Shown in pieces: positions 1,024 to 40,009 of a DNA stretch of 64,000 bases (positions are counted from its first letter, which is position 1; every line of letters starts with the position of its first letter). The position numbers and the translations under genes are program-made. The notes under the pieces were generated by a model. It saw only the letters and a program-made list of their open reading frames with translations, did no database searches and was not told where the DNA came from. Source of the stretch: an uncultured Helicobacteraceae bacterium (GTDB lineage: Bacteria > Campylobacterota > Campylobacteria > Campylobacterales > Helicobacteraceae); the NCBI GenBank assembly GCA_944323885.1, contig CALUUD010000002.1:124001-188000 (forward strand), in the 5' to 3' direction.

Positions 1024-1032
1024 GGAAATTTT

Positions 1033-2953: not shown

Positions 2954-3000
2954 GATAAAATACTAGTTTTATTAAAATAAACACAAAGAGGTAATTTAGT

Positions 3001-3471
3001 TTGGGCGCTCTACTTGTTATTAATTTTGGTATTTTTATTATTTTTGCACTTGTCCTTGTGTTGTTTTATATTAAAGATTGCGAAATCCAAAAGAGATTAT
3101 TAAGGTATGAAAAATCACTTGATGATTTAAATAAAGAAATTTTTAAAATTAAGAAGTTTTTAAAGAGCAATGAAATAGGCAGTGGATATAATGAGGAAAG
3201 TCAAAAACAATTAAAACTTGATTTTAGAAATACAATTGATGATATTTATGCGATTATAGAAAAAGATAGAGAATATGTTGATAATAAATTATTAATAATA
3301 GAGGATAAAATTAAAGAGTTGAATTATTTTCCAAGCAGTTCAAGCAATGTTGATGATAAAAGGATAATTTCTATGTTTAAAGATGGATGGAGTGTAGAAT
3401 CTATTGCAAAAGAATTAATGATAACAAAAAGTGAAGTTGAGTTTACATTAAAGCTTGTAAATCTAGCTTGA
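3001..3471 (+). CDS. Membrane-anchored coiled-coil protein with C-terminal HTH-like tail
   Basis: 156-residue protein starting at TTG, preceded by AAAGAGG. One N-terminal membrane helix (about residues 4-24) is followed by a charged coiled-coil stretch and a C-terminal segment ISMFKDGWSVESIAKELMI that has the form of a small helix-turn-helix. The same plan, one helix, a coiled coil and an HTH-like end, is seen in SwrB/DUF6115-type proteins, which is an inference from pattern and not a confident family assignment. It sits between the conserved hypothetical and the YhhQ-like transporter on the same strand, so is probably in the same transcription unit. Confidence 0.68.
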   Translation: MGALLVINFGIFIIFALVLVLFYIKDCEIQKRLLRYEKSLDDLNKEIFKIKKFLKSNEIGSGYNEESQKQLKLDFRNTIDDIYAIIEKDREYVDNKLLIIEDKIKELNYFPSSSSNVDDKRIISMFKDGWSVESIAKELMITKSEVEFTLKLVNLA

Positions 3472-3485
3472 GAAAGGATTTTTAA

Positions 3486-4034
3486 TTGTCTGTTAAAATA
3501 ACTTGGATCTTTGCTTGTATATTTACCATAATATTTGTTTTAGCAAATTATGCTGTACAATTTAATATAGGCTCCTCAAATCTTACATATGGTGCCTTAG
3601 TTTATCCAATTAGTTTTGTATTGCTTGATGTGTTAAGTGAAAAGTATCATAAAAAAGATGTGATAAGAATTGTTAGATATGGTGTCTTGTTGTCATTTAT
3701 TCCATCATTTTTTATATCGCAACCTTCAATTGCCATTGCATCAATTTGTGCTTTTTTAGTTTCACAGCATTTAGATGTTTATATTTTCTTTGCATTAAAG
3801 AAGATGTTTCCAAAATTATGGTGGCTTAGAAATAACCTATCTACTATTATAGCTCAACTATTTGATACTCTTATATTTTTTCATATAGCATTTTGGTTTG
3901 AACAATCTTGGAGCTGGATTCTTATAACTGCATTATTAGACTTTAGCATAAAGGTTATTTCAAGTTTTGCTAGCACCCCATTTTTTTATATTTTTGCAAT
4001 AAGGGTAAAACGCAATATTGTTTTTCATAAGTAA
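3486..4034 (+). CDS. YhhQ/VUT-family queuosine precursor transporter
   Basis: 182 residues with about six hydrophobic segments. The pattern matches the VUT (YhhQ) family: an early FVLANYAVQFNIG segment, then LTYGALVYPISFVLLDVLSEKYHKK, where the loop after the second helix is the family hallmark. Members take up queuine or preQ bases used to modify tRNA. The start is TTG preceded by AAAGGA at 3473-3478. It is slightly shorter than the typical 200-230 residues of the family, mainly at the C-terminus. It is the last gene before the hydrogenase operon, separated from it by 108 bases. Confidence 0.75.
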   Translation: MSVKITWIFACIFTIIFVLANYAVQFNIGSSNLTYGALVYPISFVLLDVLSEKYHKKDVIRIVRYGVLLSFIPSFFISQPSIAIASICAFLVSQHLDVYIFFALKKMFPKLWWLRNNLSTIIAQLFDTLIFFHIAFWFEQSWSWILITALLDFSIKVISSFASTPFFYIFAIRVKRNIVFHK

Positions 4035-4142
4035 ATATTTTTCATAGTATTTCTTAAAGAATACCTTTAATATTGCTTTTGCGGTGTTAAAGGTTGTATT
4101 ATTATGGAATGGGTTACTTAATTATATTAGGGAGGTTTATAT
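4035..4142. promoter_or_regulatory. Leader and probable promoter region of the hyd operon
   Basis: This 108-base gap precedes hydA. It holds an imperfect 18-base dyad at 4047-4064 (14 of 18 positions symmetric), a TATTAT hexamer at 4097-4102 that could serve as a -10 box, and a strong ribosome binding site GGGAGG at 4130-4135, 7 bases before the ATG at 4143. Two half-sites of the Helicobacter NikR type (TATTATT at 4097-4103 and AATTATA at 4120-4126) are present, but the spacer is 16 bases instead of the 11 recalled for the H. pylori consensus. No start site can be fixed by eye. Confidence 0.4.
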
Positions 4143-5303
4143 ATGATGAATCAAGACAATCAATCTTATAGTAGTGCATTAAAAAGACTTGATGAATTGG
4201 AAAAAATGCCAATAAGGGTTGATAAAGAAGATGATATAAAGGATATTCTATCAAATAATGGAATTTCAAGAAGAGATTTTATGAAGTGGGCTGCAGCCAT
4301 GACTGCTACATTAGCACTCCCATCTTCATTTATTCCACTTACTGCCAGGGCAGCGGAATTAGCAGGTAGGATTCCTGTTGTTTGGCTCCATATGGCGGAA
4401 TGCACAGGTTGTAGTGAAAGTCTTCTTAGAAGCAGTTCCCCCTCTATAGATAGCATTATTTTTGATTATATTAGTTTAGAGTATCATGAAACTATTATGG
4501 CAGCATCTGGTTGGCAAGCAGAAGAAAATCTTCATAATGCATTAAAAGATTATAAAGGTAGATATATATTGATGGTTGAAGGTGGGATTCCAAGTGGTCA
4601 GAGTGAATTCTACCTTACAATAGGTGCCCATGGAGTAACTGGTGCACAAATAGCAAGGGAAGCCGCAGAAGGAGCTATGGCAATTTTTGCAATTGGAACT
4701 TGTTCTAGTTTTGGTGGTGTCCAAGCAGCAGATCCAAATCCAACAAATGCAATGCCGCTTAGCAAAATAACAAATAAACCTGTTATAAATGTCCCAGGTT
4801 GTCCTCCTAGTGAAAAAAATATAGTTGGAAGCTTATTGCATTTTATTTTATTTCAAACTCTTCCTGCACTTGATGCTTACAATAGACCAACTTGGGCATA
4901 TGGTCTTAGAATACATGATTTATGCGAAAGAAGAGGACATTTTGATGCAGGTGAGTTTGTTCAGCATTTTGGTGATGAGGGTGCCCAAAATGGTTATTGT
5001 TTATACAAGGTAGGTTGCAAAGGTCCATACACATTTAATAATTGTTCAAGGCTTGGATTTAATGATCATACAAGTTGGCCTGTTAAAGCAGGACATGGTT
5101 GTATAGGTTGCAGTGAGCCAAATTTTTGGGATAGAATGCGACCTTTTGAAGAACCCCTTGCAAATAGGTTGTATTCTACCAAATTTGATGGTTTAGGTGC
5201 TGATAAGACTGCAGATACAGTTGGTATAGTGCTTTTAAGCGCTACTGCTATTGGAATTGCTGCACATGCTGCTATTTCTAGTATGGTTAAGAATAAAGAA
5301 TAA
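4143..5303 (+). CDS. hydA: [NiFe] uptake hydrogenase small subunit
   Basis: 386-residue iron-sulfur subunit of the quinone-reactive group 1 hydrogenase, which oxidises periplasmic H2 and passes electrons to HydC and menaquinone. A twin-arginine motif SRRDFMKW (RR at 43-44) sits after an unusually long polar N-region and is followed by a hydrophobic stretch ending near PLTARA, about residue 70, so the mature protein is exported folded by Tat. Cluster ligands are visible: ECTGCSES (C87, C90) for the proximal cluster, GCPPSEKN, the HDLCERR region, and GCIGCSEPNFWD for the distal clusters. A C-terminal hydrophobic helix (about 357-378) anchors the complex in the membrane. First gene of hydABCDE. 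A second in-frame ATG follows directly at 4146. Confidence 0.96.
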   Translation: MMNQDNQSYSSALKRLDELEKMPIRVDKEDDIKDILSNNGISRRDFMKWAAAMTATLALPSSFIPLTARAAELAGRIPVVWLHMAECTGCSESLLRSSSPSIDSIIFDYISLEYHETIMAASGWQAEENLHNALKDYKGRYILMVEGGIPSGQSEFYLTIGAHGVTGAQIAREAAEGAMAIFAIGTCSSFGGVQAADPNPTNAMPLSKITNKPVINVPGCPPSEKNIVGSLLHFILFQTLPALDAYNRPTWAYGLRIHDLCERRGHFDAGEFVQHFGDEGAQNGYCLYKVGCKGPYTFNNCSRLGFNDHTSWPVKAGHGCIGCSEPNFWDRMRPFEEPLANRLYSTKFDGLGADKTADTVGIVLLSATAIGIAAHAAISSMVKNKE

Positions 5304-5321
5304 AATTAGGGAGATTTTGTA

Positions 5322-7046
5322 ATGACAAAAAGAATAGTAGTTGATCCAATAACAAGAATTGAGGGGCATTTAAGGATAGAGGTTGTAGTGGACGATAATA
5401 ATGTAATTACAGATGCATTTTCTAGTTCTACTTTATGGAGAGGATTGGAAAAAGTTGTTCAAAATAGAGATCCTAGAGATGCAGGATTTTTAATGCAAAG
5501 AATTTGTGGAGTATGCACCTTTTCTCATTATAAAGCTGGTATTAGTGCAGTTGAAAATGCATTGAATATTACTCCGCCAAAAAATGCAGAACTTATTAGA
5601 TCGTTAATGAATATTTCTCTTGTTTTGCATGATCATACAGTGCATTTTTATACACTACATGGGCTTGATTGGTGTGATGTAGTATCAGCATTAAAAGCAG
5701 ATCCATTTAAGGCATCAAAGATTGCATTTCAATATAGTGATTTTCCTATGAATACAGGTGCTGATGAGCTAAAAGCTGTTCAAGCTAAAGTTGCAGATTT
5801 TGCTAAGAAAGGCGCATTAGGTCCTTTTGCAAATGCATATTGGGGACATAAAACATATAGATTTTCTCCAGAACAGAATTTGATTGTTTTATCTCATTAT
5901 CTTAAATTGCTTGAAGTTCAAAGAGTTGCAGCTCAAATGATGGCTATTTTTGGCTCGAAGCAACCTCATCCTCAGAATCTAACTGTTGGTGGTATTACTT
6001 CTGTTATGGACGTATTAGATCCAAGTAGATTGGGTGATTGGCTTGCTAAATATCAATATGTGAAAGAGTTTGTAAATAGAGCTTATTATCCAGATATATT
6101 GATGGCTGCAGAGGTGTATAAAAATGAACCAAGTGTTATGAAAGGATCTGGAGTAGCAAACTTTTTATGTTTTGAAGAAATTCCAATTGGAAATGGAGAG
6201 CACCTTTATAGCAGTGGCATTATTAGAGATTATGATATTTCAAAACTATATGATATTGATGAAGATTTGATAACAGAAGAGGCTACGCATTCTTGGTATA
6301 AAGATAATGAACCACTTCATCCTTATGATGGTAAAACAGAACCAGAATATACTGGATTTAAAGAAGGAATGAGTATTGGGGTGGATTTAAAGAATGTAAA
6401 AACAAAATTATTAGATACTAGTGGAAAATATAGCTGGATAAAATCTCCAAGATATAATGGTGCTCCTATGGAAGTTGGTCCTTTGGCAGCTATTGTTGTT
6501 GGTCTTGCAGCAAAAAATCCACGCATTACAGCTATTGCAGAGCAATTTTTAAAAGATTCTAAGCTTCCAATAAAGGCATTATTTAGCACACTAGGTAGGA
6601 CTGCAGCTAGAGCATTGGAGTGTAAATTATCTGCTGATTATGGAATAGAAGTTTTTAATTCATTGATAGAAAATTTAAAAACAGATAAAACTACTTGTGC
6701 AAAATATCACATAGATAATAATAAAGAATACAAGGGTAGATATATTGGTAATGTTCCGCGTGGAACACTTAGCCACTGGGTAAGAATTAAAAATGGTGTT
6801 ATTGAAAACTATCAAGCAGTTGTTCCTTCTACTTGGAATGCAGGCCCTAGAGATGCAAATGGACAAAAAGGTCCATATGAGGCTAGTTTAATTGGTATAA
6901 AAATCGAAAATCTTGCTCAACCTCTAGAAATTATTAGAACTATACATTCATTTGATCCTTGCATTGCATGTTCTGTTCACTTAATAGATGCAAAAGGTAA
7001 TAAAATGAGTGAATATAAAATAAATCCAGCTACTTTGCGTATATAG
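5322..7046 (+). CDS. hydB: [NiFe] uptake hydrogenase large subunit
   Basis: 574-residue catalytic subunit carrying the NiFe(CN)2CO centre. The N-terminal ligand motif is RICGVC (C62, C65), followed by the expected His. The C-terminal motif DPCIACSVH supplies C547 and C550, with H553 as the site after which the maturation protease removes a tail, here 21 residues long. Length and both motifs are normal for group 1 enzymes. It starts 18 bases after hydA behind a GGGAGATTTT ribosome binding site and is followed after 11 bases by hydC. It is exported together with HydA by the Tat route in homologous systems because it has no signal of its own. Confidence 0.97.
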   Translation: MTKRIVVDPITRIEGHLRIEVVVDDNNVITDAFSSSTLWRGLEKVVQNRDPRDAGFLMQRICGVCTFSHYKAGISAVENALNITPPKNAELIRSLMNISLVLHDHTVHFYTLHGLDWCDVVSALKADPFKASKIAFQYSDFPMNTGADELKAVQAKVADFAKKGALGPFANAYWGHKTYRFSPEQNLIVLSHYLKLLEVQRVAAQMMAIFGSKQPHPQNLTVGGITSVMDVLDPSRLGDWLAKYQYVKEFVNRAYYPDILMAAEVYKNEPSVMKGSGVANFLCFEEIPIGNGEHLYSSGIIRDYDISKLYDIDEDLITEEATHSWYKDNEPLHPYDGKTEPEYTGFKEGMSIGVDLKNVKTKLLDTSGKYSWIKSPRYNGAPMEVGPLAAIVVGLAAKNPRITAIAEQFLKDSKLPIKALFSTLGRTAARALECKLSADYGIEVFNSLIENLKTDKTTCAKYHIDNNKEYKGRYIGNVPRGTLSHWVRIKNGVIENYQAVVPSTWNAGPRDANGQKGPYEASLIGIKIENLAQPLEIIRTIHSFDPCIACSVHLIDAKGNKMSEYKINPATLRI

Positions 7047-27754: not shown

Positions 27755-28494
27755 AGAATCTATGGGATAAAAGAGCGAAGAATTTTCCTAGATATGATAA
27801 AAATCTTAAAGAAGATAAAATTATATTTGATTTTTTCAATGCCAAAGAGGTAAATTTAAAAGATAAAGTTATACTTGATCTTGGGTGTGGAAATGGTAGG
27901 TATGCTTTACATTTAGCAAAACAAGCAAGACTAGTATATGCATTTGATATATCAAGTGAAATGATAGAAAATGTAAGAAATGATGCAAAATCCCATAAAA
28001 TAGATAATATAGAATGTTTTTGTGGTGATTGGAATGATTTTGATGTAAGTAGATTCTTGCAGCCTATAGATATCGTGTTTGCATCCCTTACACCTGCATT
28101 AAATAGCTTTGAAAAGTTTAAAAAAGCAATTAATATTGCAAAAGAAGGTATGATGTATATAGGATGGGGCAATAAGAGAGAAAGTGCCTTTTTGGAAGAG
28201 ATATTTAAGGCGCATAATGCAAAGCTAGAGATACCAGTAGGTGCCAAAGATGTAGAGGGTTATTTAAAAGAGCTTAATATTGAGTTACCAGAAGTAAAAT
28301 TTATAACAAAAAATATAAATAAAAAGAAAAAATTTCAAGATGCAATTAGTGATGCTGTATTTCAGCTAGAAATGCATAATGTAGAGCCAAATAATAGTCT
28401 AATAAAAGACATAATAACTAACAAATGGCTACATAATGATATGGTGGAATATGTAAATATAATGGAAATAGGGATGATGTATATAAAGAATTAG
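27751..28494 (+). CDS. Class I SAM-dependent methyltransferase
   Basis: 247 residues. The SAM-binding loop is VILDLGCGNGRYALHLA (about residues 38-54), followed by an acidic residue ending the second strand (YAFDISSEMIE). Beta-4 reads IDIVFASLTPAL. No substrate-specific domain is recognised. It is the last gene of the LPS transcription unit and starts at GTG inside the previous gene's end. Its stop lies in the perfect inverted repeat at the left edge of the accessory island. Confidence 0.82.
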   Translation: MKNLWDKRAKNFPRYDKNLKEDKIIFDFFNAKEVNLKDKVILDLGCGNGRYALHLAKQARLVYAFDISSEMIENVRNDAKSHKIDNIECFCGDWNDFDVSRFLQPIDIVFASLTPALNSFEKFKKAINIAKEGMMYIGWGNKRESAFLEEIFKAHNAKLEIPVGAKDVEGYLKELNIELPEVKFITKNINKKKKFQDAISDAVFQLEMHNVEPNNSLIKDIITNKWLHNDMVEYVNIMEIGMMYIKN

Positions 28495-28512
28495 AATCTT
28501 TTAAGATTCTAA
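28491..28512. terminator. Perfect inverted repeat between convergent genes
   Basis: TTAGAATCTT at 28491-28500 and AAGATTCTAA at 28503-28512 form a perfect 10-base stem with a 2-base gap. It overlaps the stop codons of the methyltransferase and of the convergent pentapeptide gene, so it could act as a two-way terminator; no long T run follows on the plus strand. The arms are AGAATCT and AGATTCT, the heptamer found over-represented across the window. Confidence 0.5.
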
Positions 28513-29903
28513 TTTGGCACTATGGAGTTTTTGCGTGCAGTTTTTTGGAGAGAGAAAATAATCAAACCTATTACTATTGTATAAATTGTAATTAAAAAAT
28601 TCTCAAGGCCATTATATTTAGTATCTCCAAAAAGATTTGCTATACCAAATATTAGTTGGGGTTTATAGTAAATTGCCAATAAAGTTATCACGGTACCGAT
28701 ACTGGCAAAAACATTAAGCCTTTTATGTCTAGACTTGCATCCAAAACAACATAAAATAAGCATAATAAAAGTACAAGCTATACTAAAACATGCTCCAAAT
28801 GTGTTTAGAAACTCTAATATGCCAATATCTTGAATTGACCTTGAGATAAAATATAATGAGGCAAATAAACCTATGGCAATAACCAACCACTTTAGATTTA
28901 AAAGCAAATCTGTATGATGTTCACAAAGCTTTCTATAAAAGACAAGTTGCCAATAATCTATTTTTTCTTTTAGTGTTTTGTTTTCTTTATAATCTAACTC
29001 TATTTCTTTAGCATATAGTTCATATTTGTGGAATCTTGAGGCTTCAAGTAGATTATTATCCTTTATCAAAGCACTTTTAAAGACCCTAAAAGAATCTCTA
29101 AAATCATTTGCAAATTTATAATCCTCTTTTTCATTATTATTATTTTTATTTTCTAATATTTTTTTAGCTTTTTTTATAGATTTTTTTATACCACTCATAT
29201 TAAAATCCATTTTCATATTTACTGGGTCTAGATTGCCTATAAACTTAGCTTGAGAAAAATTTGGGACTTTTTTAAACTCCACTCCATAAAAACAAGCTAC
29301 TTTTTCAAATTCGCATTCATGAAAATCAGCATAATCTTCAAAAATAGAGTTGTTGAAATAGACATTATCTTTGAATATTGTATTACTAAAATCTATATTT
29401 CCATTGAATTTAGAGTGTTTAAAATTAACACCAGATTCAAATTTTGTATTTCTAAAATTTATATCATTGTAAAACATAGAATTTACAAAGTTTACACTAT
29501 GGTTGAATTTTGTATCACTAAAATCTACATCAGATAAAAATTTACTTGAGATATAAATCTCATTGATATAGTCTAATTTATCTTCTGAAATTAGAAATTC
29601 ACATTCTTTAAAACAAATTTGTTTGTTGAAGTTGCATGATATTATTTTTGCATTAATAAATAATTTACACTCATAAAATTTTAGATTGATATTTATATCT
29701 TTTATAAAAAAATCATTATTAAATTTAATATGGCATTTATAAAATCTTATAGGAATATCAATTTGTATATCACCAAATTCATCTTTTATGATTATTTCTT
29801 TTTTTTCATCGATCGTGTATGATTTATATTGATCTTCATATTGTATATCATTTTCACTTATTGTTAGAGCATTTGCTATCTTTTTTATGTTTTCCCTGTG
29901 CAT
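28509..29903 (-). CDS. Pentapeptide-repeat membrane protein, paralogue 1
   Basis: 464 residues. Residues 1 to about 120 are a beta-rich, charged N-terminal region nearly identical to that of paralogue 3. About 125-220 form a run of pentapeptide-type repeats in which Phe recurs every five residues (pattern VDFSDTKF, VNFKHSKF, IDFSNTIF), expected to fold as a right-handed beta helix. A charged linker with FHKYELYAKE and LKEKIDYWQL follows, then three or four membrane helices (about 333-450) and a basic tail QKTARKNSIVPN. The membrane module matches that of paralogue 2, not paralogue 3. No catalytic motif is seen and the function is unknown. It is the last gene of the minus-strand island. Confidence 0.82.
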   Translation of the reverse strand: MHRENIKKIANALTISENDIQYEDQYKSYTIDEKKEIIIKDEFGDIQIDIPIRFYKCHIKFNNDFFIKDININLKFYECKLFINAKIISCNFNKQICFKECEFLISEDKLDYINEIYISSKFLSDVDFSDTKFNHSVNFVNSMFYNDINFRNTKFESGVNFKHSKFNGNIDFSNTIFKDNVYFNNSIFEDYADFHECEFEKVACFYGVEFKKVPNFSQAKFIGNLDPVNMKMDFNMSGIKKSIKKAKKILENKNNNNEKEDYKFANDFRDSFRVFKSALIKDNNLLEASRFHKYELYAKEIELDYKENKTLKEKIDYWQLVFYRKLCEHHTDLLLNLKWLVIAIGLFASLYFISRSIQDIGILEFLNTFGACFSIACTFIMLILCCFGCKSRHKRLNVFASIGTVITLLAIYYKPQLIFGIANLFGDTKYNGLENFLITIYTIVIGLIIFSLQKTARKNSIVPN

Positions 29904-29926
29904 TGTATATTTTTCCTTATCTCTTT

Positions 29927-31714
29927 CTAATTTGGTATTATAGAGTTTTTTCGTGCGGTTTTTTGGAGGGAGAAAAGCACTAAAGCTAAAAGTATGGTAT
30001 AAATCGTAATCAAAGCATTTTCAAAACCATTATGATTATTATCGCCTATAAGATTTGCGATTCCAAAGATTAATTTTGGCTTATAGAAAATCACCCATAA
30101 AGTTATCACGGTACCGATACTGGCAAAAAAATCAAGCCTTTCAATATGTCCAAACCAACATAAAACAAGCATAATAAAAGCACAAGCTATACTAAAACAT
30201 ATTCCAAATGGGTTTAAAATGCCTAATATGGCAATATCTTGAATTAACCTTGAGATAAAATATAATAAAGCAAATAAACCTATTGTTATAGCTAACCACT
30301 TTAGATTTAAAAGTAAATCTGTATGATGCTCACAAAGATTTCTATAAAAGACAAGTTGCCAATAATCTATTTTTTCTTTTAGTGTTTTTTTGCCTTTATG
30401 TTTTAGCTCTAGTTCTCTAGCATAGAGTTCTTGTGTATGTAGCTCGGAAGCATCTATTAGATTATGATGTGTTATTCTATTACTCTTTAGCTTTCTAAAT
30501 AAATCTCTATAGTTTAACAAACTATCATAATCTTTTATCTCTTTTATTTTTTCATAGCTATATTGTATATATTTATGTTCTATATTAAACTGATTAGAAA
30601 AGGTGCAGTTTTTAAATTGTGGTTTATTGTCAAGATTTGTTTTATCAAATGTCACAATGCCATTAAATACTACGTTATCAAATTCTAATTTGTTAATATT
30701 TAGATTATCAAAGCTTAATATATCTTTGAATGTTGAATTTCTAAAAGTATAGGTTTCTGTATTTTTACAATCTATATCAATAAACTTTGTTTTATTGAAT
30801 TCTGTATAGTGAAATATACAATTATCCAAATTTATATCTACAAACAATACTTCAGCTTTAAAACTTGAGATTTCAAAACTTACCCTTCCTTGAAAATTTG
30901 CACCATTAAAAAATGTATTTCCCTCAAAGATAATTTCTGTAAAATTGTTCTCTATGGTTTTACTATCACTTTGATTAGCTAGGAATTGTGCCAATGTAAA
31001 TCTTGTTTCGCCCTTAAATTGTGAGATTTCAAAACTTACCCTTCCTTGGAATTCTACCCCATCAAAAAATGCTTTCCCTTCAAAGATAGTTTCTCTAAAA
31101 TTGTTTTCTATAGTTTTACTATCACTTTGATTAGCTAGGAATTGTGCCTGTATAAATCTTGCTTCGGCTTTAAATTTTGAGACTACAAAACTTACTCTCT
31201 CTTGAAATATAGCGCTATCAAAATTTACATTCTCTTCAAAGATGACTTCTCTAAAATTATTTTCTATCTCGCTATTGCCTTGTTCTGCTAGAAATTGAGT
31301 TTCTATAAATCTTATTTTGTCTTTAAATGTAGAAGCTAAGAAATCTACTTTACTTCTAAATACTGCTTTAGAAAAATCCACTATGCTTTCAAAGATACAT
31401 TGATGAAATGTGATTGTATTATTAAAACTATATGCTCTAGCAATAATTGGATGCTTAAAATTACAACATTCAAATTTTATATCTATATTTATATCTATTG
31501 TAGTTTCTTTGGTAAAATTAATATATTTTACTTCACTTCCAAAAATATATATTTCTTTTATTTTTTTATCTTGAATTTTTTTAATATTTATTTTATCTAT
31601 TTGAGCAGAGACTATGGTTATCTTATTATTTTGTATCTTTATGTTATCTTCTATCTCCATGTTATCATTTATAGCAAAGATCTCATATTCTTTTAGTCGT
31701 TTATCGTATTCCAT
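29927..31714 (-). CDS. Pentapeptide-repeat membrane protein, paralogue 2
   Basis: 595 residues, the longest of three. The N-terminal region (1 to about 100) differs from those of paralogues 1 and 3. A long pentapeptide-type array (about 100-380) contains a unit of 52 residues repeated in tandem, visible as two copies of FLANQSDSKTIENNF and GRVSFEIS; the corresponding DNA repeats at a 156-base offset. The linker (RDLFRKLKSN, LKEKIDYWQL, NLCEHHTDLLLN) and the C-terminal membrane module with QKTARKNSIIPN are shared with paralogue 1. The ATG follows directly on the decayed end of a type IIG gene, which supplies the ribosome binding site (GAGGGG). Function unknown. Confidence 0.82.
   Translation of the reverse strand: MEYDKRLKEYEIFAINDNMEIEDNIKIQNNKITIVSAQIDKINIKKIQDKKIKEIYIFGSEVKYINFTKETTIDINIDIKFECCNFKHPIIARAYSFNNTITFHQCIFESIVDFSKAVFRSKVDFLASTFKDKIRFIETQFLAEQGNSEIENNFREVIFEENVNFDSAIFQERVSFVVSKFKAEARFIQAQFLANQSDSKTIENNFRETIFEGKAFFDGVEFQGRVSFEISQFKGETRFTLAQFLANQSDSKTIENNFTEIIFEGNTFFNGANFQGRVSFEISSFKAEVLFVDINLDNCIFHYTEFNKTKFIDIDCKNTETYTFRNSTFKDILSFDNLNINKLEFDNVVFNGIVTFDKTNLDNKPQFKNCTFSNQFNIEHKYIQYSYEKIKEIKDYDSLLNYRDLFRKLKSNRITHHNLIDASELHTQELYARELELKHKGKKTLKEKIDYWQLVFYRNLCEHHTDLLLNLKWLAITIGLFALLYFISRLIQDIAILGILNPFGICFSIACAFIMLVLCWFGHIERLDFFASIGTVITLWVIFYKPKLIFGIANLIGDNNHNGFENALITIYTILLALVLFSLQKTARKNSIIPN
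30941..31252. repeat. 156-base tandem repeats inside paralogue 2
   Basis: A block starting with AAAATTGTT at 30941 recurs at 31097 with the same downstream sequence at a constant 156-base (52-codon) offset and only scattered substitutions. A weaker third unit appears farther right, near 31250, where AAATTATTTTCTATCTCG replaces the conserved start. The offset preserves the reading frame, so the array lengthens the beta helix without breaking the protein. Confidence 0.7.
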
Positions 31715-31860
31715 TTATTTCCCCTCTATAATTTTTATTCATCTTTAGTTAGATTGTAGAGTTTATAGACTACATTATTGATTTTAGATTCTAGTTCTTT
31801 TAAAAATCTTTTATTTTAGATTCTAAGATTTGATCTAATAGATGATTGGGTATTTGCATT
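31715..31860 (-). pseudogene. Decayed 3' end of a second type IIG restriction-modification gene
   Basis: This gap aligns base by base with the last part of the intact type IIG gene at 36197-36340. Translated on the minus strand it reads QILESKIKD, then after a one-base frameshift KELESKINNVVYKLYNLTKDE, against QILDSKAKD and KELESKIDNLVYTLYSLTDDE in the intact gene. A premature TAA follows KDE. The final TAAATGG arrangement, where the stop leads straight into the next ATG, is also kept, here serving paralogue 2. About 45 codons remain; the rest of the gene is gone. Confidence 0.75.
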
Positions 31861-31872
31861 TTTATATCCTTT

Positions 31873-33321
31873 CTAATTTGGCACTATAGAATTCTTTCTA
31901 ATCGTTTTTATAAAAGAAAACAAAACAAAACCAAAGCATATTGTGTAGATTCCGCCAAGAGTGCTTAGCGGGTCTAAAAGTGCTCTTTTGTCAGTAAAGA
32001 TTCCCATTGCTGGTATAAGAATCTTGGGTGAGATGAGTAGGATACCGATCACAGCAACATACGATATGCCTATAAAGAATCCCCTTATATATTTACATTT
32101 TACGCTTATTGATAAAAGCAAAATGACTAAATAAATGGCTAGTATAAAAAGATTAAATATGACTGCACATAGAGTGTGCATCTCTACAAAGGATTGGATA
32201 TGTGCGTTATAAAAATCCTTTACCATATAGAGATGAGAAAATATCGACTCATATCCTAAGCAATACTTAAAGCCTATAATCACTCCCAAACTCACTAAGC
32301 CAAAAAGTCCTATGACTAGCATTAGCGAATTGAAACTTTTTAAAATATCTGTATGATGCTCACAAAGATTTCTATAAAACCATAATTGCCAATAATCTAT
32401 TTTTTCTTTTAGTATTTTGTTTTCTTTATAATCTAGCTCCATTTCTTTAGCATATAGTTCATATTTATGGAATTCTGAAGCATCAAGCAGATTGTTATCC
32501 TTTATTAAAGCACTTTTAAAACCCCTAAAAGAATCTCTAAAATCATTTGCAAATTTATCTAGCGACTTCTTATTGTCATTGTTATGTTCTTGTTTGATTT
32601 TTGCTTCTAATTTATCAAAATCAAAATTTAGATTTGCATTTGCTATATTTAAATTACTTTTAAATATAGCTTGAGAAAAGTTTGGTGTCTTTTTAAATGT
32701 TACTCCATAAAAACTTGCAGTTTTTTCAAATTCACATTCATGAAAATCAGCATAATCTTCAAAAATAGAGTTGTTGAAATAGACATTGTCTTTGAATTTG
32801 AATTTATTAAAGTTTGGTGTCTTTTTAAATGTTACTCCATAAAAACTTGCAGTTTTTTCAAATTCACATTCATGAAAATCAGCATAATCTTCAAAAATAG
32901 AGTTGTTGAAATAGACATTGTCTTTGAATATTGTATTACTAAAATCTACACTATGTAAAAATTTACTTGAGATACGAATCTCATTGATATAGTCTAATTT
33001 ATCTTCTGAAATTAGAAATTCACATTCTTTAAAATAAATTTGTTTGTTGAAGTTGCATGATATTATTTTTGTATTAATAAATTTACACTCATAAAATTCT
33101 AGATTGATATTTATATCTTTTCTAAGATTATCATTATTAAATTTAATATGGCATTTATAAAATTTTACAGGAATATCAATTTGTATATCACCAAATTCAT
33201 CTTTTATGATTATTTCTTTTTTTTCATCGATCGTGTATGATTTATATTGATCTTCATATTGTATATCATTTTCACTTATTGTTAGAGCATTTGCTATCTT
33301 TTTTATGTTTTCCCTGTGCAT
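31873..33321 (-). CDS. Pentapeptide-repeat membrane protein, paralogue 3
   Basis: 482 residues. The first 110 residues are almost the same as in paralogue 1, then the array is shorter and contains a 44-residue unit repeated twice in perfect tandem (FKDNVYFNNSIFEDYADF, ECEFEKTASFYGVTF). The linker (FANDFRDSFRGFKSALIKD, YELYAKEMELDY) is again shared, but the membrane module (about 330-470) is different from paralogues 1 and 2, with four or five helices and another long loop. The extreme C-terminus KTIRKNSIVPN is the same. This is a mosaic of known parts. Function unknown. Confidence 0.82.
   Translation of the reverse strand: MHRENIKKIANALTISENDIQYEDQYKSYTIDEKKEIIIKDEFGDIQIDIPVKFYKCHIKFNNDNLRKDININLEFYECKFINTKIISCNFNKQIYFKECEFLISEDKLDYINEIRISSKFLHSVDFSNTIFKDNVYFNNSIFEDYADFHECEFEKTASFYGVTFKKTPNFNKFKFKDNVYFNNSIFEDYADFHECEFEKTASFYGVTFKKTPNFSQAIFKSNLNIANANLNFDFDKLEAKIKQEHNNDNKKSLDKFANDFRDSFRGFKSALIKDNNLLDASEFHKYELYAKEMELDYKENKILKEKIDYWQLWFYRNLCEHHTDILKSFNSLMLVIGLFGLVSLGVIIGFKYCLGYESIFSHLYMVKDFYNAHIQSFVEMHTLCAVIFNLFILAIYLVILLLSISVKCKYIRGFFIGISYVAVIGILLISPKILIPAMGIFTDKRALLDPLSTLGGIYTICFGFVLFSFIKTIRKNSIVPN
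32677..32929. repeat. 132-base in-frame tandem duplication in paralogue 3
   Basis: Bases 32677-32797 and 32809-32929 are identical over 121 positions, at an offset of 132 bases (44 codons), separated by 11 bases that belong to the unit. The absence of any substitution points to a recent duplication by slippage or unequal recombination. The reading frame is preserved. Confidence 0.9.
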
Positions 33322-33340
33322 TGTATATTTTTCCTTATCT

Positions 33341-33401
33341 CTTTCTAATTTGGTATTATAGAGTTTTTTCGTGCGGTTTTTTGGAGGGAGAAAAGCACTA
33401 A
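33341..33401 (-). pseudogene. 17-codon tail of a lost pentapeptide gene
   Basis: On the minus strand this reads VLFSLQKTARKNSIIPN and a stop, the exact C-terminus of paralogue 2. The DNA from inside paralogue 3's start through 33401 is identical to the stretch from inside paralogue 1's start through the end of paralogue 2 (to about 29983). Identity stops at 33401, one base before the stop codon of the beta-family gene. It marks a recombination joint. Confidence 0.85.
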
Positions 33402-34469
33402 CTAATAATATGAAATTTGTATTTCCAATGCTTTTCTATGTAAGTTAATGCAATTTGAGATCATTTTGCTTATGTAGATATTATTTCTCACTGAAATCCA
33501 AAAAGCAGGATTTTTTCCTGCAACATAACCTTCTTTTGCATCTAGAAAAACTTTTTCTCCCCAAGTTGGTTCTTTTTCATTAATTAATATCTCAATCTCA
33601 TTATAAAGCTTCTTTGCACATTCAATATATGCATGTTCAGTATCTATAGTATCAGAAGTTCGATATCTACAATACCAAAATTCTATTCTATTATTTTTTA
33701 CGCTTGGAATATCAATTCTGGGAATCCAGCCTCTAGCTTGCATATCATATCTCCTAGCTGTAGTAAGTGTATAATCACCATAATAAACATTAGGGAATTC
33801 TCCATAGAGGCGACTGAATCCTAAATCACATTTTTTAATTTCTCCCTCATCTGAGATTGGAATTGTTGGAGGAAAACAAGAAAAAGCGTAAATTATTGCT
33901 TTAATTTTAAAGTCTGAAATTTGTTTAATATAATTAAAAAAATCAAAGTCTTTTTGTTGATTTTCAGCATCCAAAATCACAATACATTTATCTAGGTATT
34001 CCTCTATTGCATCGAGATATTTATGATTATCTGGATCTAAAGCATTTAATCTTAGTGCTAAAGTTGGAAATTTTATGCTTAAAGCTTTTATTTGCGTTAA
34101 AACATCATCCATGCAATCAGGATTATAGTGAATACATGGAATAAAATTAAGTCCTAACTCATTATATTTCATGACAAAATCTACCCATTTTTTGTAGCCA
34201 TCATTATTGGATGATAACATATTTTGTATTTCATCATTATCGAGAGTTTCTTCTGTAGTTAAATCTAATATGAAGTAATTTTTGTCAAAAATCCTAGATA
34301 CTTCTTCCATTTTCTTTTCAATAGAACCTTTTTTGTTTTTTTGAGTTATTCTTGATCTTGTTAGCTCTAAAATTGGCAATATTTTTACTTTATCTGTCTT
34401 TGATAATTTCTCATATGCTCTCAACTCTGCATCACGACTTTTTAAAATTGGAAAATAATAAAACTCCAT
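33402..34469 (-). CDS. Beta-family (sce7725-like) protein
   Basis: 355 residues, soluble. The start EFYYFPILKSRDAELRAYEKL, followed by KILPILELTR, matches the phage-type beta protein family (PF14350 as I recall it). Members are found in phages and mobile islands, often beside ImmA/IrrE peptidases, and have no established activity. The remaining protein alternates strands and helices in a barrel-like way (FILDLT, LNFIPCIHYN, LALRLNA, CIVILDAE, KAIIYAF). The ATG follows directly on the stop of the ImmA/IrrE gene. The stop codon is at the recombination joint with the pentapeptide tail, so its original 3' end may have been altered. Confidence 0.75.
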   Translation of the reverse strand: MEFYYFPILKSRDAELRAYEKLSKTDKVKILPILELTRSRITQKNKKGSIEKKMEEVSRIFDKNYFILDLTTEETLDNDEIQNMLSSNNDGYKKWVDFVMKYNELGLNFIPCIHYNPDCMDDVLTQIKALSIKFPTLALRLNALDPDNHKYLDAIEEYLDKCIVILDAENQQKDFDFFNYIKQISDFKIKAIIYAFSCFPPTIPISDEGEIKKCDLGFSRLYGEFPNVYYGDYTLTTARRYDMQARGWIPRIDIPSVKNNRIEFWYCRYRTSDTIDTEHAYIECAKKLYNEIEILINEKEPTWGEKVFLDAKEGYVAGKNPAFWISVRNNIYISKMISNCINLHRKALEIQISYY

Positions 34470-35015
34470 TTAATATTCCTTGAGATATCCTAATTTAAAA
34501 GCACGATACTTGATTGCTGCAGACGAAACTTGAAAAAAATCAGCTAAACCATTTATTTTATTATTTCCTTTCCTTATTTCAGTTTCAAATACTTCTTTTG
34601 GCATTAATAAGTCCGCAGCAAATTGATTAGCTTCTAATTCTTTTTTATTTCCAGCATCATTACTAGATCGAAAAAGGATAATGTCTTCAAGCTTATTGCC
34701 TTGTTTTAAAAATTCTTTATGTAAAACAAAATGTGCAAATTCGTGTGCTAATGTAAATCTTCTTCTTGATAAAGAATGATATTTATTTACAACTATTTGA
34801 TATATACCACTAAGCTTATACTCTATTTTACCTGAAATATCATTATCAAAATAATCTTCCCAATAATCAATTTCTGGAATATTTCTAATATAAGCAAATA
34901 TATCAAAAGGTTTAGTTTCAATTCCTATTTTTTTTGCGTGTTGATAAATTTCATTAATGGTTTTCTTATTGTAAGGATCTAAATTTTTATTTCCCTTATT
35001 GCTAATAAAAGCCAT
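34470..35015 (-). CDS. ImmA/IrrE-family metallopeptidase
   Basis: 181 residues. The zinc-binding motif is HEFAH (91-95) within RRRFTLAHEFAHFVLH, and the third ligand is probably Glu in KELEANQFAADLLMP. A C-terminal segment NGLADFFQVSSAAIKYRAFKLGYL is the usual family tail, resembling a helix-turn-helix. Known members cleave repressors or regulators in mobile elements (ImmA of ICEBs1) or respond to damage (IrrE). No separate repressor gene lies beside it, so the target may be one of its operon partners. Confidence 0.9.
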   Translation of the reverse strand: MAFISNKGNKNLDPYNKKTINEIYQHAKKIGIETKPFDIFAYIRNIPEIDYWEDYFDNDISGKIEYKLSGIYQIVVNKYHSLSRRRFTLAHEFAHFVLHKEFLKQGNKLEDIILFRSSNDAGNKKELEANQFAADLLMPKEVFETEIRKGNNKINGLADFFQVSSAAIKYRAFKLGYLKEY

Positions 35016-35030
35016 TTATGTTCTCCTTAT

Positions 35031-35573
35031 TTATTCTTTGAAAGGTATTTCTAAATCTTTGCAACCCAATGTTTTTATTTTTTCTATTTCTCTAGTGAGG
35101 TTGTCAAGTTGATTTTTAATTGCTCCAATTTCTGTTATTAAGTTATTTTCCGAATATTCTCTGGCAACTTCTTCGATTATTTTCTTTACTTCCACTTCTT
35201 TATCTGCTAGAAATTTTTTAACTTCTTCTCTTGTTTTATTTTCAATATCTCTCATATTTTCGTCGTTTTTTCGTTTTAGGTAAAAAAATGATGAGATTCC
35301 AAATAAACCAATAATTGCTGATAAAATCAACACAAAATTATTGTAGTAGGAAATATAAAAACCAAAATAATCTTTTGCTGAAATCAATTTGCTTTCACTA
35401 ATTAATTGTTCCAGGTTTTTGCTAATATCTTTTTTTGTATCAATTTGATTTCCTATTAAAAAAATGCTTTGTAATATTTCTTCATAGGTGAACCATAATG
35501 TAAGAAAAAATAAAACGAAAAAAATCAAAGTCCAACAAGTTAGGATAAAAAAACCAGATGACAAAAATTTCAA
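35031..35573 (-). CDS. Two-TM coiled-coil protein
   Basis: 180 residues. Two hydrophobic helices (about 5-30 and 74-97) enclose a polar loop of about 45 residues, and the C-terminal 80 residues are a highly charged coiled coil (EEVKKFLADKEVEVKKIIEEV, then IGAIKNQLDNLTREIEKIK). No family is recognised. Both termini would be cytoplasmic. The gene overlaps the sce7726-like gene by four bases (ATGA) and is followed by the peptidase gene after 15 bases, so it is part of the same set; it may act as a membrane-bound sensor or anchor, which is inference only. Confidence 0.72.
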   Translation of the reverse strand: MKFLSSGFFILTCWTLIFFVLFFLTLWFTYEEILQSIFLIGNQIDTKKDISKNLEQLISESKLISAKDYFGFYISYYNNFVLILSAIIGLFGISSFFYLKRKNDENMRDIENKTREEVKKFLADKEVEVKKIIEEVAREYSENNLITEIGAIKNQLDNLTREIEKIKTLGCKDLEIPFKE

Positions 35574-36196
35574 ATTTTTTCCTTAATAATAGAGGTTTTC
35601 CCTAACAATAAAAATAAATCATCGGGATGTATTGTATCAGAATTCTCTTGTAATTCATTCTTTAGTAGTAAAAAATTTTCCAAAAAGCGATATTTTAGCT
35701 CATTAATAATCATTTCTTTAAATTCATTTTTTTTCAAATGTTGAATAATATAATGTCGAATCTTAAAAGAACTTTGTCTGCTATTCTTGCGATATTCATT
35801 GAGTTTGATTTGTGTAATGAAAAATGTTTGATAATATGCATTGGGAGTGTTCTTTGTGGGTTTCTTTTTTAAGATAAATTTCCTTGTTTGATCATTAAAA
35901 ATAATAATACCTACATTGTGTGGTAATTTTAAATCAAAATTTAAAAATTTTTGATCAAGTATTACATACACCTTATCACATATTTTGAGATAATCTTGTA
36001 TTTGCCCATCAAGCTTTGTAAGATTATCTTTCTTAGATTTAATTTCATAGCCAACAATATTTCTTTTTTCTATGGTTAAAATATCAAGTTTTCGTTTTCC
36101 TCTAATAACTGGAACTTCTATAGAGGCTAACAGTAACTCTTGTTTTTTTTTGATTAATTCTTGTAAGAATAAACACTTAATTCGTTTTTCTTCCAT
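35570..36196 (-). CDS. sce7726-like protein with PD-(D/E)XK-type motif
   Basis: 208 residues. The N-terminal half has the layout of a restriction-endonuclease fold: RKLDIL with D38, then IVGYEIKSKKDNL with E51 and K53, and a QIQDYL segment with Q65. This matches the sce7726 family as I recall it, whose members are predicted nucleases of mobile DNA. The C-terminal half is helical and unassigned. The ATG follows the stop of the type IIG gene without a gap (TAAATGG), and the ribosome binding site GAGGGAG lies inside that gene's last codons, so translation is coupled. Confidence 0.75.
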   Translation of the reverse strand: MEEKRIKCLFLQELIKKKQELLLASIEVPVIRGKRKLDILTIEKRNIVGYEIKSKKDNLTKLDGQIQDYLKICDKVYVILDQKFLNFDLKLPHNVGIIIFNDQTRKFILKKKPTKNTPNAYYQTFFITQIKLNEYRKNSRQSSFKIRHYIIQHLKKNEFKEMIINELKYRFLENFLLLKNELQENSDTIHPDDLFLLLGKTSIIKEKI

Positions 36197-39100
36197 TTAT
36201 TCTCCCTCTATGATTTTAATTTCATCGTCGGTTAGGCTATAAAGGGTATAGACTAGATTATCGATTTTGGATTCTAGCTCTTTGGTGGTGGGGTCTTTGG
36301 CTTTGGAATCTAAAATTTGCTCTACTAGGCTTATGATTTCATCGCTTAGGGCTTTGTTTGTAGAATCTATTTTGGGAATAGGAAGTTTTTCAATCTTGTC
36401 TTTTGCACCATAAGCATAATGTCCTGTTTGCACTAAATTTGTTATTTGTGTAACAAGCCATTTGTATAATGCAGAATTCATCAAACCTAAAATATATGAT
36501 AAATTGACACTGCTTGTAGTCATCATAAAAAGAGAATTATTGAAATATAATTCATCTTTGAGATAACTAAACAAATATTCTCCACTCACAGGATTCCATA
36601 CAATCTTTTCTTTTTCAAATTCCTCGTGATAAGCGATATTGTCTTGCGTTTCAAACCATTTGTTAGTTGTCTTTTTTCTACAACCTTTTTCGCCACTTTG
36701 GTTAATCCTTGGGCGAAAAGATTCTAAATATGTTTTTAATGCGGGATAATCATCTATATCTAGCTTTAGACTTGGAAAAGTGCATATCAACCACAATCCC
36801 GCCCATTCATAGCTGTAGCGTTTGATGTCTCTACCGCGTAGCATTTTGCGTATGAGTTTGGCGGTGCGTTCTTTTTCGGCTTCATCTTTACATTTAGCTA
36901 AAATTTCATCTCTTTTTTCAGTAGTGATGATAAAGGCTTCATTGTAGCCTGTTAAGATTCCACGATAAATAGATATATCCCATTCTTTTAGCGGTGTGCC
37001 AAGGCTTTCTATCTTTGCCTTTAGGTTTTGGGTGGCTTCATCGCTAAAATGGAAGCCTTCTTTACTAAGGGAGCTTTGCTTTAGCTTTTGGGAGTTAGAT
37101 TCATAGAGTGAATTTTCTTTGATTTCTTTTGGTGCAAGGTAGCAAAATGTAGTATCTTTTTTTGGCTTTTTCTTTTTAAAAGATATGATACTTGTATCTA
37201 CACTAGCACTATCAAATACCTTTATGCCATTTAGATTTATGTAGTTTAGGATTGTAGTATTTTCTAAGATAAATTCTCGCAAACTCTCTCCATATCCTGA
37301 GCGTGCGTATTTGTTGCTTGTGATAAAAGAGAGAATGCCACTATCTTTTAGGACTTTGTGTCCTAATTCAAAAAAGTAGGTATAAATATCACTTGTGCCT
37401 TTGTAGATCTTATATGCTCTTTTTAGTGATGGTTTTAGCTCTTTGATATCTTCTTGGCGGATATAAGGTGGATTGCCAATCACACAATCAAAGCCTTTAA
37501 AATCTCCACTTTCATCTAGCACTTCTGGGAATTCAAATCTCCATTCAAAGGGCTTGTTTGATTCTAGATTAAAGATAGAGTTGTATTTGTCTTGCAGTTT
37601 TGCAAAGTCGATTTGTGCTTGTTTTTTGTCAAAATCATCATCAAAGATACTTAGAGATGCCTTTATGTATAAGGCTAGATTCTTGTCATCTTTTGCTAGG
37701 TAGTTGCCGTATTTTTGGCTATAGATATCACACTCTTTTTCAAAGGCTTTTATCTCTTTTTCAAACTTATCTCTAAAGCAGAAATTTTTAAAAGCATCTT
37801 TTAGGTTTTTTATCTCTTTATCTATGGCATTTTTACTAGTGTAGAATCCTTGCTTATAATTTGAGACAGATGTTTTGTAGTCTTCTATCTTTTGCTTGAT
37901 ATTTTTATAGTGGCTAAGGCTTTGAGTGATATCAAAATAAGAGATAAGAGAATTCCCACACTTGATATTTATATCTATGTTTGGGAGGGTTTGGAGTGTA
38001 TTTGTATTGTTATCATTTTCAAAGATATAGTAGCTATATTTAAGTAGCTCTATCCAAAGGCGTAGCTTCGTGATTTCACAAGAGTTTGGATTGATATCTA
38101 CACCAAAGAGGCAAGATTCTATTATTTCTTTTTTTAAGTGGAAAAGCTCTTTTTGGATTTTGTGTTGTATCTCATCTTTATTATTTGGTTTTTGGTAGTT
38201 GAATATATCTTCATCTTGTTTTATTACTATTTCATCATTTTCTAATCTTAGAGTAGTTTTTAGATTAAAAGATTCTAATAGTCCTATCTTATAGGCAATA
38301 AGCACTATTTCATTTAGTGCAGATACTAGAAAATGCCCACTACCTACTGATGGATCACAAATCTTTAGGCTAAGAAGTGTTTGGAGTAGTTCTTTTTGGG
38401 ATTTGTTGTTTTCTCTAGCTAGATTTGATATATCTTTTAGCCCTCTTGCATTCCAATTGTATGTATCATTGAATTTATTTAATACTGCTTGTGTGATACT
38501 CTCTTTGCACATATAGCTTGTAATAAAGCTTGGGGTATAGAAGCTGCCTTCTTTGTAGCCATTTAGCTTTTCAAAGACTAGCCCTAAGATGGATGAATTT
38601 ATGAGTTTGTCGTGGTTTATTTTGATATTGTCTTTTATGTCTTTTGGTGTGGTGGTGAAATCATATGTATGCAAAAATCTAAATATATACTCTAGCAATG
38701 GAAGCTCTTTTTCCTTTAGCACGCTTTTTTGGTATAGTGGTATAGTGTAGGATTCTAAGTGCTTTATGTCATTGCCATTTAATTCTAATTGTGTTTTGTC
38801 AAATAAGCTTGAGTTTAGATAAGGTATGTAGTGGAATAGCTTTTTATCATCTATATTTCTATCATTTTCTTTTTTTGCCAATACCCCAAAAAATAGCCTT
38901 GATAGTGTAGAGAAGTTGTTTATTTTTTCTATATCTAAAAATGGCTCTTTGATGTGTCCAAATGATATAAGCATAGATTCTAAAAGTCGCAAGAATAAGA
39001 TTCTATTATTCCATAGTATAATAAGGCTAAATACCTCTTCATCGCTTATATTTGGAAAGGCATTTTTAATGCTATTAGATAGTGAGTTTTGAGTATTGCT

Positions 39101-39874
39101 TAGCTTGATTAGAATCTTGCCATTTTCTTTTATTTCTTGTAATCCTAGTATATATAAAAGCTCATCATAGAATTTTTTATGTAGGGTGTTTGCATCTATT
39201 ATTTTATTTTTCTTTAGTAGTATTTCTGGGCTTAGTATTTGATAGATTCTAGATAGTAAAAGATCATCTATATCTTTTGTAAGTTTAAAATGTGTATATT
39301 TTATGGTTTTATCAAAATTATTTTTTAGATGGGATTCTAAGTCTTTATAGAATTTACTTGTGCTTTTATCTACCCCTTCTTTATTGTCGCAATTATTGTA
39401 GTATCGCTTAATAGTTTTGTCTTCTATAAAAACTCTAAATTCATCCGCACAAAATACAAAAAAATCAATAGGATTGCATATTATTATGTGTTTTATTTCA
39501 TTGTTGTTATTTTGGTTGTATTCTCTTAGGAAGTAAAGAATGCTTTCATAAAATGCTTTTGATAAGGGATTATTAGCATCTTTTGGGAATTCATTTTTAT
39601 TTTTTAGTTGTTTTGCTTCTATTATTACTTTTACTATATTGTCATCATATATTGCAGAATCTATATTGTCTTTTTCATTGATTTTATATCCAAATGTATT
39701 TTTTAATAAATCATTTATTTCATTTTTTTGATACCCCTCTCTTTCTTGTTTATCTCTTTCTTCTATGTATGATAGATAATATTTTTTAAAGTTTTTTATT
39801 TGTGCATCTTTTGGTGTGGTTGTTTTGTATTTTTCTATGAATTTATCTATATCAATGTATTCAAATTTGATCAT
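36197..39874 (-). CDS. Type IIG restriction-modification protein (Eco57I-like)
   Basis: 1225 residues from the ATG at 39874, which has AGGGA about six bases upstream; an in-frame ATG 66 bases earlier lacks a good site. One chain carries both activities. An N-terminal nuclease core is suggested by IDSAIYDDNIVKVIIEAKQL (D near 72-79, E86, K88). The N6-adenine methyltransferase follows with motif I DPSVGSGHF (507-515) and motif IV NPPYI (801-805) in DCVIGNPPYIRQED. The C-terminal third (about 980-1225) is the target recognition part. The site recognised cannot be told from sequence. No frame break or long homopolymer is seen, so it should be functional. First gene of the minus-strand island. Confidence 0.92.
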   Translation of the reverse strand: MIKFEYIDIDKFIEKYKTTTPKDAQIKNFKKYYLSYIEERDKQEREGYQKNEINDLLKNTFGYKINEKDNIDSAIYDDNIVKVIIEAKQLKNKNEFPKDANNPLSKAFYESILYFLREYNQNNNNEIKHIIICNPIDFFVFCADEFRVFIEDKTIKRYYNNCDNKEGVDKSTSKFYKDLESHLKNNFDKTIKYTHFKLTKDIDDLLLSRIYQILSPEILLKKNKIIDANTLHKKFYDELLYILGLQEIKENGKILIKLSNTQNSLSNSIKNAFPNISDEEVFSLIILWNNRILFLRLLESMLISFGHIKEPFLDIEKINNFSTLSRLFFGVLAKKENDRNIDDKKLFHYIPYLNSSLFDKTQLELNGNDIKHLESYTIPLYQKSVLKEKELPLLEYIFRFLHTYDFTTTPKDIKDNIKINHDKLINSSILGLVFEKLNGYKEGSFYTPSFITSYMCKESITQAVLNKFNDTYNWNARGLKDISNLARENNKSQKELLQTLLSLKICDPSVGSGHFLVSALNEIVLIAYKIGLLESFNLKTTLRLENDEIVIKQDEDIFNYQKPNNKDEIQHKIQKELFHLKKEIIESCLFGVDINPNSCEITKLRLWIELLKYSYYIFENDNNTNTLQTLPNIDINIKCGNSLISYFDITQSLSHYKNIKQKIEDYKTSVSNYKQGFYTSKNAIDKEIKNLKDAFKNFCFRDKFEKEIKAFEKECDIYSQKYGNYLAKDDKNLALYIKASLSIFDDDFDKKQAQIDFAKLQDKYNSIFNLESNKPFEWRFEFPEVLDESGDFKGFDCVIGNPPYIRQEDIKELKPSLKRAYKIYKGTSDIYTYFFELGHKVLKDSGILSFITSNKYARSGYGESLREFILENTTILNYINLNGIKVFDSASVDTSIISFKKKKPKKDTTFCYLAPKEIKENSLYESNSQKLKQSSLSKEGFHFSDEATQNLKAKIESLGTPLKEWDISIYRGILTGYNEAFIITTEKRDEILAKCKDEAEKERTAKLIRKMLRGRDIKRYSYEWAGLWLICTFPSLKLDIDDYPALKTYLESFRPRINQSGEKGCRKKTTNKWFETQDNIAYHEEFEKEKIVWNPVSGEYLFSYLKDELYFNNSLFMMTTSSVNLSYILGLMNSALYKWLVTQITNLVQTGHYAYGAKDKIEKLPIPKIDSTNKALSDEIISLVEQILDSKAKDPTTKELESKIDNLVYTLYSLTDDEIKIIEGE

Positions 39875-40009
39875 AAAAGTCCCTATTTTTTTAAATATTC
39901 TTGATGTGTATTTAAAAATTTTCAGGTAAAAATCTATCAAAAAAATCTAAAAAATATACATAATTTATTAAAATAACGATTTTTAAATATTTTTTAATAG
40001 GTGGTAATT

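Follow-up and report, generated by a model that had tools for sequence, protein, structure and literature searches.

What role could three pentapeptide-repeat (PPR) genes have that stand side by side behind a restriction-modification (RM) gene and combine their parts differently? The question arises from a single locus in the window, the 64,000-nt stretch of DNA from an uncultured Helicobacteraceae bacterium analysed here, where the first-pass annotation had described three paralogues sharing one plan, with the N-terminal region common to genes 1 and 3 and the membrane module common to genes 1 and 2. All three ORFs are intact (Table 1), and the encoded proteins run from a pentapeptide beta helix through a helical linker and a membrane module to a basic tail. 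The Pentapeptide_3 profile (PF13576) matched the three proteins with 65.1, 78.4 and 83.9 bits, against a curated cut-off of 27, and found three to five significant stretches in each (E-values 7e-18 to 9e-24). Their C-termini contain three to four strong hydrophobic segments, and the positively charged tail (net +3) lies at the end of the last membrane helix.

Table 1. Coordinates of the PPR genes and of the associated features within the window.
Feature	Position	Strand	Description
PPR gene 1	28509..29903	(-)	464 aa; N-terminal region and helix like gene 3, membrane module like gene 2
gene 1 linker	28908..29111	(-)	homologous to 30317-30514 (gene 2) and 32347-32550 (gene 3); contains recombination breakpoint
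PPR gene 2	29927..31714	(-)	595 aa; own N-terminal region, longer helix, membrane module like gene 1
decayed type IIG RM 3' end (scar)	about 31714..31844	(-)	between genes 3 and 2, directly in front of gene 2
PPR gene 3	31873..33321	(-)	482 aa; N-terminal region and helix like gene 1, different membrane module
fourth PPR gene remnant	33345..33401	(-)	last 18 codons (LVLFSLQKTARKNSIIPN) and stop; directly behind beta-protein gene
beta protein (PF14350)	33402..34469	(-)	same cargo as sce7726
ImmA/IrrE-like metallopeptidase	34470..35015	(-)	same cargo as sce7726
small protein	35031..35573	(-)	N-terminal hydrophobic segments, charged C-terminal half; same cargo as sce7726
sce7726-family protein (MmcB-like)	35570..36196	(-)	cargo gene abutting RM stop
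type IIG RM gene	36197..39940	(-)	1247 aa; Eco57I methylase, TaqI_C specificity domain; cluster head

The codon alignment of the three genes confirmed that they are true mosaics, and here the ORFs, the profile matches and the site patterns all agree with the original description. For the N-terminus and helix, 251 informative sites group genes 1 and 3 versus 51 for genes 1 and 2, while in the membrane module 153 sites group genes 1 and 2 versus 22 for genes 1 and 3. A single-breakpoint test gave a maximum chi2 of 268, a value reached in none of 10,000 permutations, and placed the breakpoint at alignment column 457, within the linker. Linker and tail had been described as common to all three genes, and both are indeed present throughout, but the linker is split between partners, with most of it pairing gene 1 with gene 3, and the tail reads KTARKNSI in genes 1 and 2 versus KTIRKNSI in gene 3. 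Genes 1 and 3 also share a 300-nt repeat, 95% identical, that takes in their 5' ends and the junction upstream. The dN/dS ratio was below 1 wherever it could be computed, and thus the PPR genes look functional. Homopolymers typical of phase variation (7 or more G/C, or 10 or more A/T) were absent from positions 28001-40000.

We expanded the search to the GTDB species genomes with a profile of 17 sequences, which yielded 65 loci, nearly all in Helicobacter and Campylobacter, where the family is widespread; in the window's own family, 43 of the 121 genomes have a member. Most loci contain one gene, and tandem arrays of two or three were found at L038, L039, L041 and L069. In an alignment of 41 diverse members the linker (ELYxKExE, HHTD) and the tail (KTxRKxxIxP) are invariant and the membrane part is variable; the KTxRKNSIxP form of the tail is nearly invariant across PPR proteins despite the freely varying module that precedes it. 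Pairwise comparisons indicate that modules are swapped between species throughout the family: L031 and L034 are 95.5% identical in the membrane module, 62% in the linker and 35% in the N-terminus; L046 and L067 have membrane modules at 94% and linkers at 97%, with no N-terminal match; and L038 and L044 have linkers at 94.5% and N-termini at 76%, with no match between the membrane modules. The module exchange postulated for the window is therefore borne out both by its own breakpoint and by these swaps. The single match outside the Campylobacterota (L059) comes from a 3 kb contig binned with a Clostridia MAG. This contig bears a PPR gene together with Helicobacter-typical RM scars, and it was probably assigned to the wrong bin, its true origin being Helicobacter. 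As no relatives were found in plasmid collections, phage collections or viral contigs, the family does not look phage- or plasmid-borne.

The survey of gene neighbourhoods showed that the link with restriction is general, strongly directional and translationally coupled, which favours a role in defence. In the 121 genomes of the window's family, 28 of 69 PPR places (a count which includes remnants, and in which places sharing a locus are not fully independent) lie within 10 kb of a relative of the type IIG RM gene, and in all 28 the PPR gene is downstream on the same strand, for which the expectation by chance is approximately 0.2%. When the neighbours were clustered, 29 of 62 loci likewise turned out to include a type IIG RM gene; its strand was in every case that of the PPR gene, and its position was most often directly 5'. 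Relative to the stop of an RM gene or scar, the start of 27/74 PPR ORFs in the fetched loci falls between -22 and +24 nt, and mostly between -5 and +1; among other ORFs the count is 18/439 (Fisher p 5e-14). The first-pass annotation had set variation at defence loci against single genes located elsewhere, and on this point the picture is mixed: most loci have a single gene and about half of the copies are not by a type IIG RM gene, with more than half of the 69 copies not within 10 kb of a type IIG relative, but several of these adjoin type I or type ISP RM, Abi or AAA/OLD-like genes. Examples are a type ISP RM gene with Abi_alpha (L058), HsdS (L043), HsdR (L070), an AbiD-like gene (L093) and AAA genes. 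Taken together, the mosaic family and its coupling to RM genes are well supported.

The same arrangement is found in C. jejuni and C. coli, where family members stand directly behind cj0031-type RM genes (L039, L090). In C. jejuni the published cj0031-type locus has the same gene order as the family loci, an Eco57I-type RM gene followed by a pentapeptide-repeat gene, and the slot behind the RM gene is occupied by the PPR gene in a strain resistant to phage and by other genes in a sensitive one, a correlation of two strains in which the gene (DDV75_00185) is listed among several strain differences without analysis (PMC8713573). A PPR gene reported beside the LraI RM system (PMC5896346) is unrelated, as there the RM operon merely interrupts the gene.

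The loci also preserve traces of past rearrangements. Orphan RM 3' ends of approximately 27-75 codons recur (43 in the scan, some of them fragmented RM ORFs) and often end no more than a few nucleotides from the start of the next cargo gene, while PPR tails occur as scars 17 times. An RM scar precedes PPR genes, an sce7726 gene (L034), a TIR-NTPase gene (L053) and, between RM ends, a gene for a Pkinase-type protein (L034), and the cargo types stacked behind RM genes and separated by scars are PPR, SIR2-HerA, TIR, kinase and toxin-antitoxin. The HerA-type ATPase of L031 is flanked by two scars, and L089, L129 and L134 have chains of small toxin-antitoxin-like genes with RM 3' ends between them. 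The left ends of the scars are variable, which favours homologous or illegitimate recombination over a site-specific recombinase. We infer from these arrangements an order of events in which incoming RM 3' ends bring in cargo and push older cargo downstream. Domain movement with exchange of specificity domains has been described in Helicobacter RM genes (PMC3077401), in the same bacteria and likewise driven by recombination, but that movement is inside the RM genes, whereas here RM 3' ends flank separate cargo genes.

Several individual loci deserve mention. In Helicobacter trogontum (L031, 5600-8966) a pair with PADLOC SIR2 and HerA matches within the scanned set lies between two RM scars and two PPR genes. 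In Helicobacter sp. RGIG5417 (L089, 1-3900) a PPR tail, an NYN-like gene and three small toxin-antitoxin-like pairs have six copies of the RM 3' end between them, giving an integron-like look. In Helicobacter rappini (L095, 8304-10120) a gene with a metallo-beta-lactamase fold and a small membrane-type gene are followed only by a PPR tail, and the equivalent slot in H. bilis (L047) contains a PPR gene.

Two features of the window, the fourth PPR remnant and the RM scar, had escaped the first-pass annotation. The protein encoded by the remnant is identical to the tail of gene 2; the remnant is directly upstream of gene 3 and touches the stop of the beta-protein gene. The RM scar preceding gene 2, matched by tblastn with 66.7% over 27 aa (E 5.5e-7), is spread over two reading frames with internal stops, and suggests that another RM gene probably once stood directly ahead of gene 2. 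The cargo block at 33402-36196, consisting of the sce7726, small transmembrane/charged, ImmA/IrrE and beta-protein genes, is 87-89% identical in Helicobacter sp. 10-6591 (L034), where the sce7726 relative (88% identical) has an RM scar ahead of it. The ImmA and beta proteins weakly match components B and C of PD-Lambda-2 in PADLOC, and the block is possibly a defence system of its own. At the same chromosomal site, between an htrB-like gene and dnaJ, genome G004 of the same genus carries a single RM gene and a single PPR gene (L124). In genome G001, a region with an htrB-like match (L125) contains ORFs related to RM genes but lacks any PPR match. Behind the RM gene at L125 (6726-7747) and L129 (6165-7221) stand ORFs of 147-198 aa that match the C-terminus of the RM protein; these may represent specificity-domain copies that are silent or have been displaced.

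Such traces could also be expected if the PPR genes were passive passengers, dragged along when recombination at the RM 3' end exchanges specificity domains, and had no role tied to restriction. This is a serious rival, albeit an unlikely one. It accommodates the scars ahead of many unrelated cargo genes, as well as the many PPR copies that are remnants or frameshifted, but it sits poorly with the low dN/dS, with residues invariant across 41 divergent proteins, with a cargo rich in defence-type genes and with the recurrence of copies near other RM types.

Next we turned to predicted structures. The AlphaFold models of gene 1 (mf992f504d7d1, mean pLDDT 80.7) and gene 3 (m84a7a994cb79, mean pLDDT 82.9) contain a beta helix, a linker forming a helical hairpin and four helices in the membrane region, and place the beta helix and the basic tail adjacent on one side, presumably the cytoplasmic one. 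Their helix is of the right-handed pentapeptide type seen in Qnr, MfpA, AlbG and EfsQnr, which are DNA mimics acting on gyrase. These proteins match the gene 3 model with VIA Z 14-17, essentially over helix and linker; the Qnr/MfpA type is soluble, whereas the PPR proteins add the linker, three to four hydrophobic helices and the conserved tail. A DNA-mimic helix could also act on the restriction enzyme itself, binding the type IIG protein to hold it at the membrane or to damp self-restriction, with the start/stop overlap setting the stoichiometry. While the overlap of the RM stop with the PPR start and the likeness to Qnr, AlbG and MfpA speak for such modulation, copies are also found behind type ISP RM genes, type I RM genes or no RM gene at all, three diverged copies behind one RM gene fit one-to-one binding poorly, and the variable membrane module is left unexplained, so that we consider this second serious rival to be quite unlikely.

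The annotation knew of no role for the membrane-anchored form, and this no longer holds, as a known channel has the same overall build. HalA (PDB 9nyi) is the membrane channel of the Hailong anti-phage defence (Tan et al. 2025, doi 10.1038/s41586-025-09058-z, as described in PMC13275509, PMC12657218 and PMC12657230), and according to PMC13275509 and PMC12657230 it is blocked by oligo-dA made by HalB and released when a phage nuclease removes this DNA. Like the PPR family, HalA combines a short pentapeptide-type beta helix with a helical linker, C-terminal membrane helices and a basic C-terminus. In a Foldseek search of the PDB with the gene 1 model, HalA ranked first (E 1.3e-3, probability 1.00; next match E 0.7), although it was not among the 50 VIA matches listed for this model; for the gene 3 model it ranked third in Foldseek, with VIA Z 14.9 over 275 residues within model positions 80-480, which include helix, linker and membrane part. 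The overall fold of the two predicted models is HalA-like, with low TM-scores to HalA (0.25-0.33). Comparison of the linker and membrane part with one HalA sequence gave an hhalign probability of 0.1%, and no similarity was detectable outside the repeats, leaving common ancestry of these parts unproven. Searches with the PPR proteins found no channel signature in Pfam, no NCBIfam match, no PADLOC-DB 2.0.0 family for any of the three at E-values up to 0.1 and only chance matches among PDB sequences, and the fold search against viral models gave none at E < 0.001. By analogy, it is plausible that the PPR proteins work like HalA.

The partner genes differ, however. The gene for HalA overlaps that for HalB stop to start (as also at a HalA/HalB locus found in a viral contig, L122), just as PPR genes overlap RM genes, but the PPR family is without HalB, has an RM gene as partner, carries the KTxRKNSIxP tail and shuffles its modules family-wide. 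Sequence searches found no HalB in the window cluster or in the window genome, which is 99.9% complete, nor a match above cut-off to the nucleotidyltransferase families PF01909 and PF18765 in that genome, although the positive controls were recovered, and no HalB-like ORF was present among the ORFs of the fetched PPR loci. An identification of the PPR system as Hailong was rejected for want of HalB. A true variant of Hailong, in which a nucleotidyltransferase that is unrecognised or unlinked supplies the ssDNA that gates HalA orthologues, would account for the HalA-like models and the similar gene overlap, but given these negative searches it is very unlikely.

Of the roles first suggested by the variety of modules, defence is favoured by the RM link, whereas surface recognition finds no support. 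Surface or secreted proteins that vary to fit the receptor of a host or phage would explain the mosaic diversity and nothing else, and with no export signal apparent in the sequences, the net +3 tail at the end of the last membrane helix, helix and tail on one side and the genomic linkage to RM, we give this idea hardly any credence.

We therefore conclude that the three PPR proteins probably serve as a second line of anti-phage weapons whose parts are shuffled. The reading we prefer, to which we assign a probability of about one half, is that they are inner-membrane effectors forming a second layer behind the type IIG RM enzyme, and that their genes are acquired and reshuffled in cassettes linked to RM. 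The pentapeptide beta helix would lie in the cytoplasm as a sensor or gate, the helical linker would transmit its state, and the membrane module of three to four helices would, by analogy with HalA, be a channel or membrane-damaging part, which opens when a phage overwhelms or disables restriction and stops the cell, a form of abortive infection. Restriction failure is a first guess for the trigger, preferred over DNA ends or a phage protein on account of the RM coupling. A comparable role as second layer beside RM, answering its failure, is taken by the restriction guards PrrC and PARIS (PMC12657218), but these are unrelated proteins, an anticodon nuclease and an ATPase with a nuclease, respectively, and guarding by PPR proteins is our proposal. 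The genes would be gained, lost and recombined as cargo at the RM 3' end, with incoming 3' ends delivering cargo genes, old 3' ends and PPR tails staying behind as scars, and recombination in the shared linker swapping sensor and membrane modules. We advance only tentatively, as the less probable outcome, the wider notion that in Helicobacter and Campylobacter the type IIG RM genes stand at the head of cassette stacks that keep growing, each cargo arriving fused to an RM 3' end, of which the commonest seen would be unrecognised HalA-like, helix-gated effectors that answer restriction failure without a HalB-type nucleotidyltransferase.

If the effector reading is true, restriction in these host-associated bacteria would often be backed by a coupled and rapidly reshuffled membrane effector, and defence genes would collect at the RM 3' end as at a docking point, where earlier exchanges would remain legible. 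HalA would then belong to a broader group of membrane effectors that are gated by a beta helix and have different partners, and Campylobacter would have a testable candidate for phage resistance.
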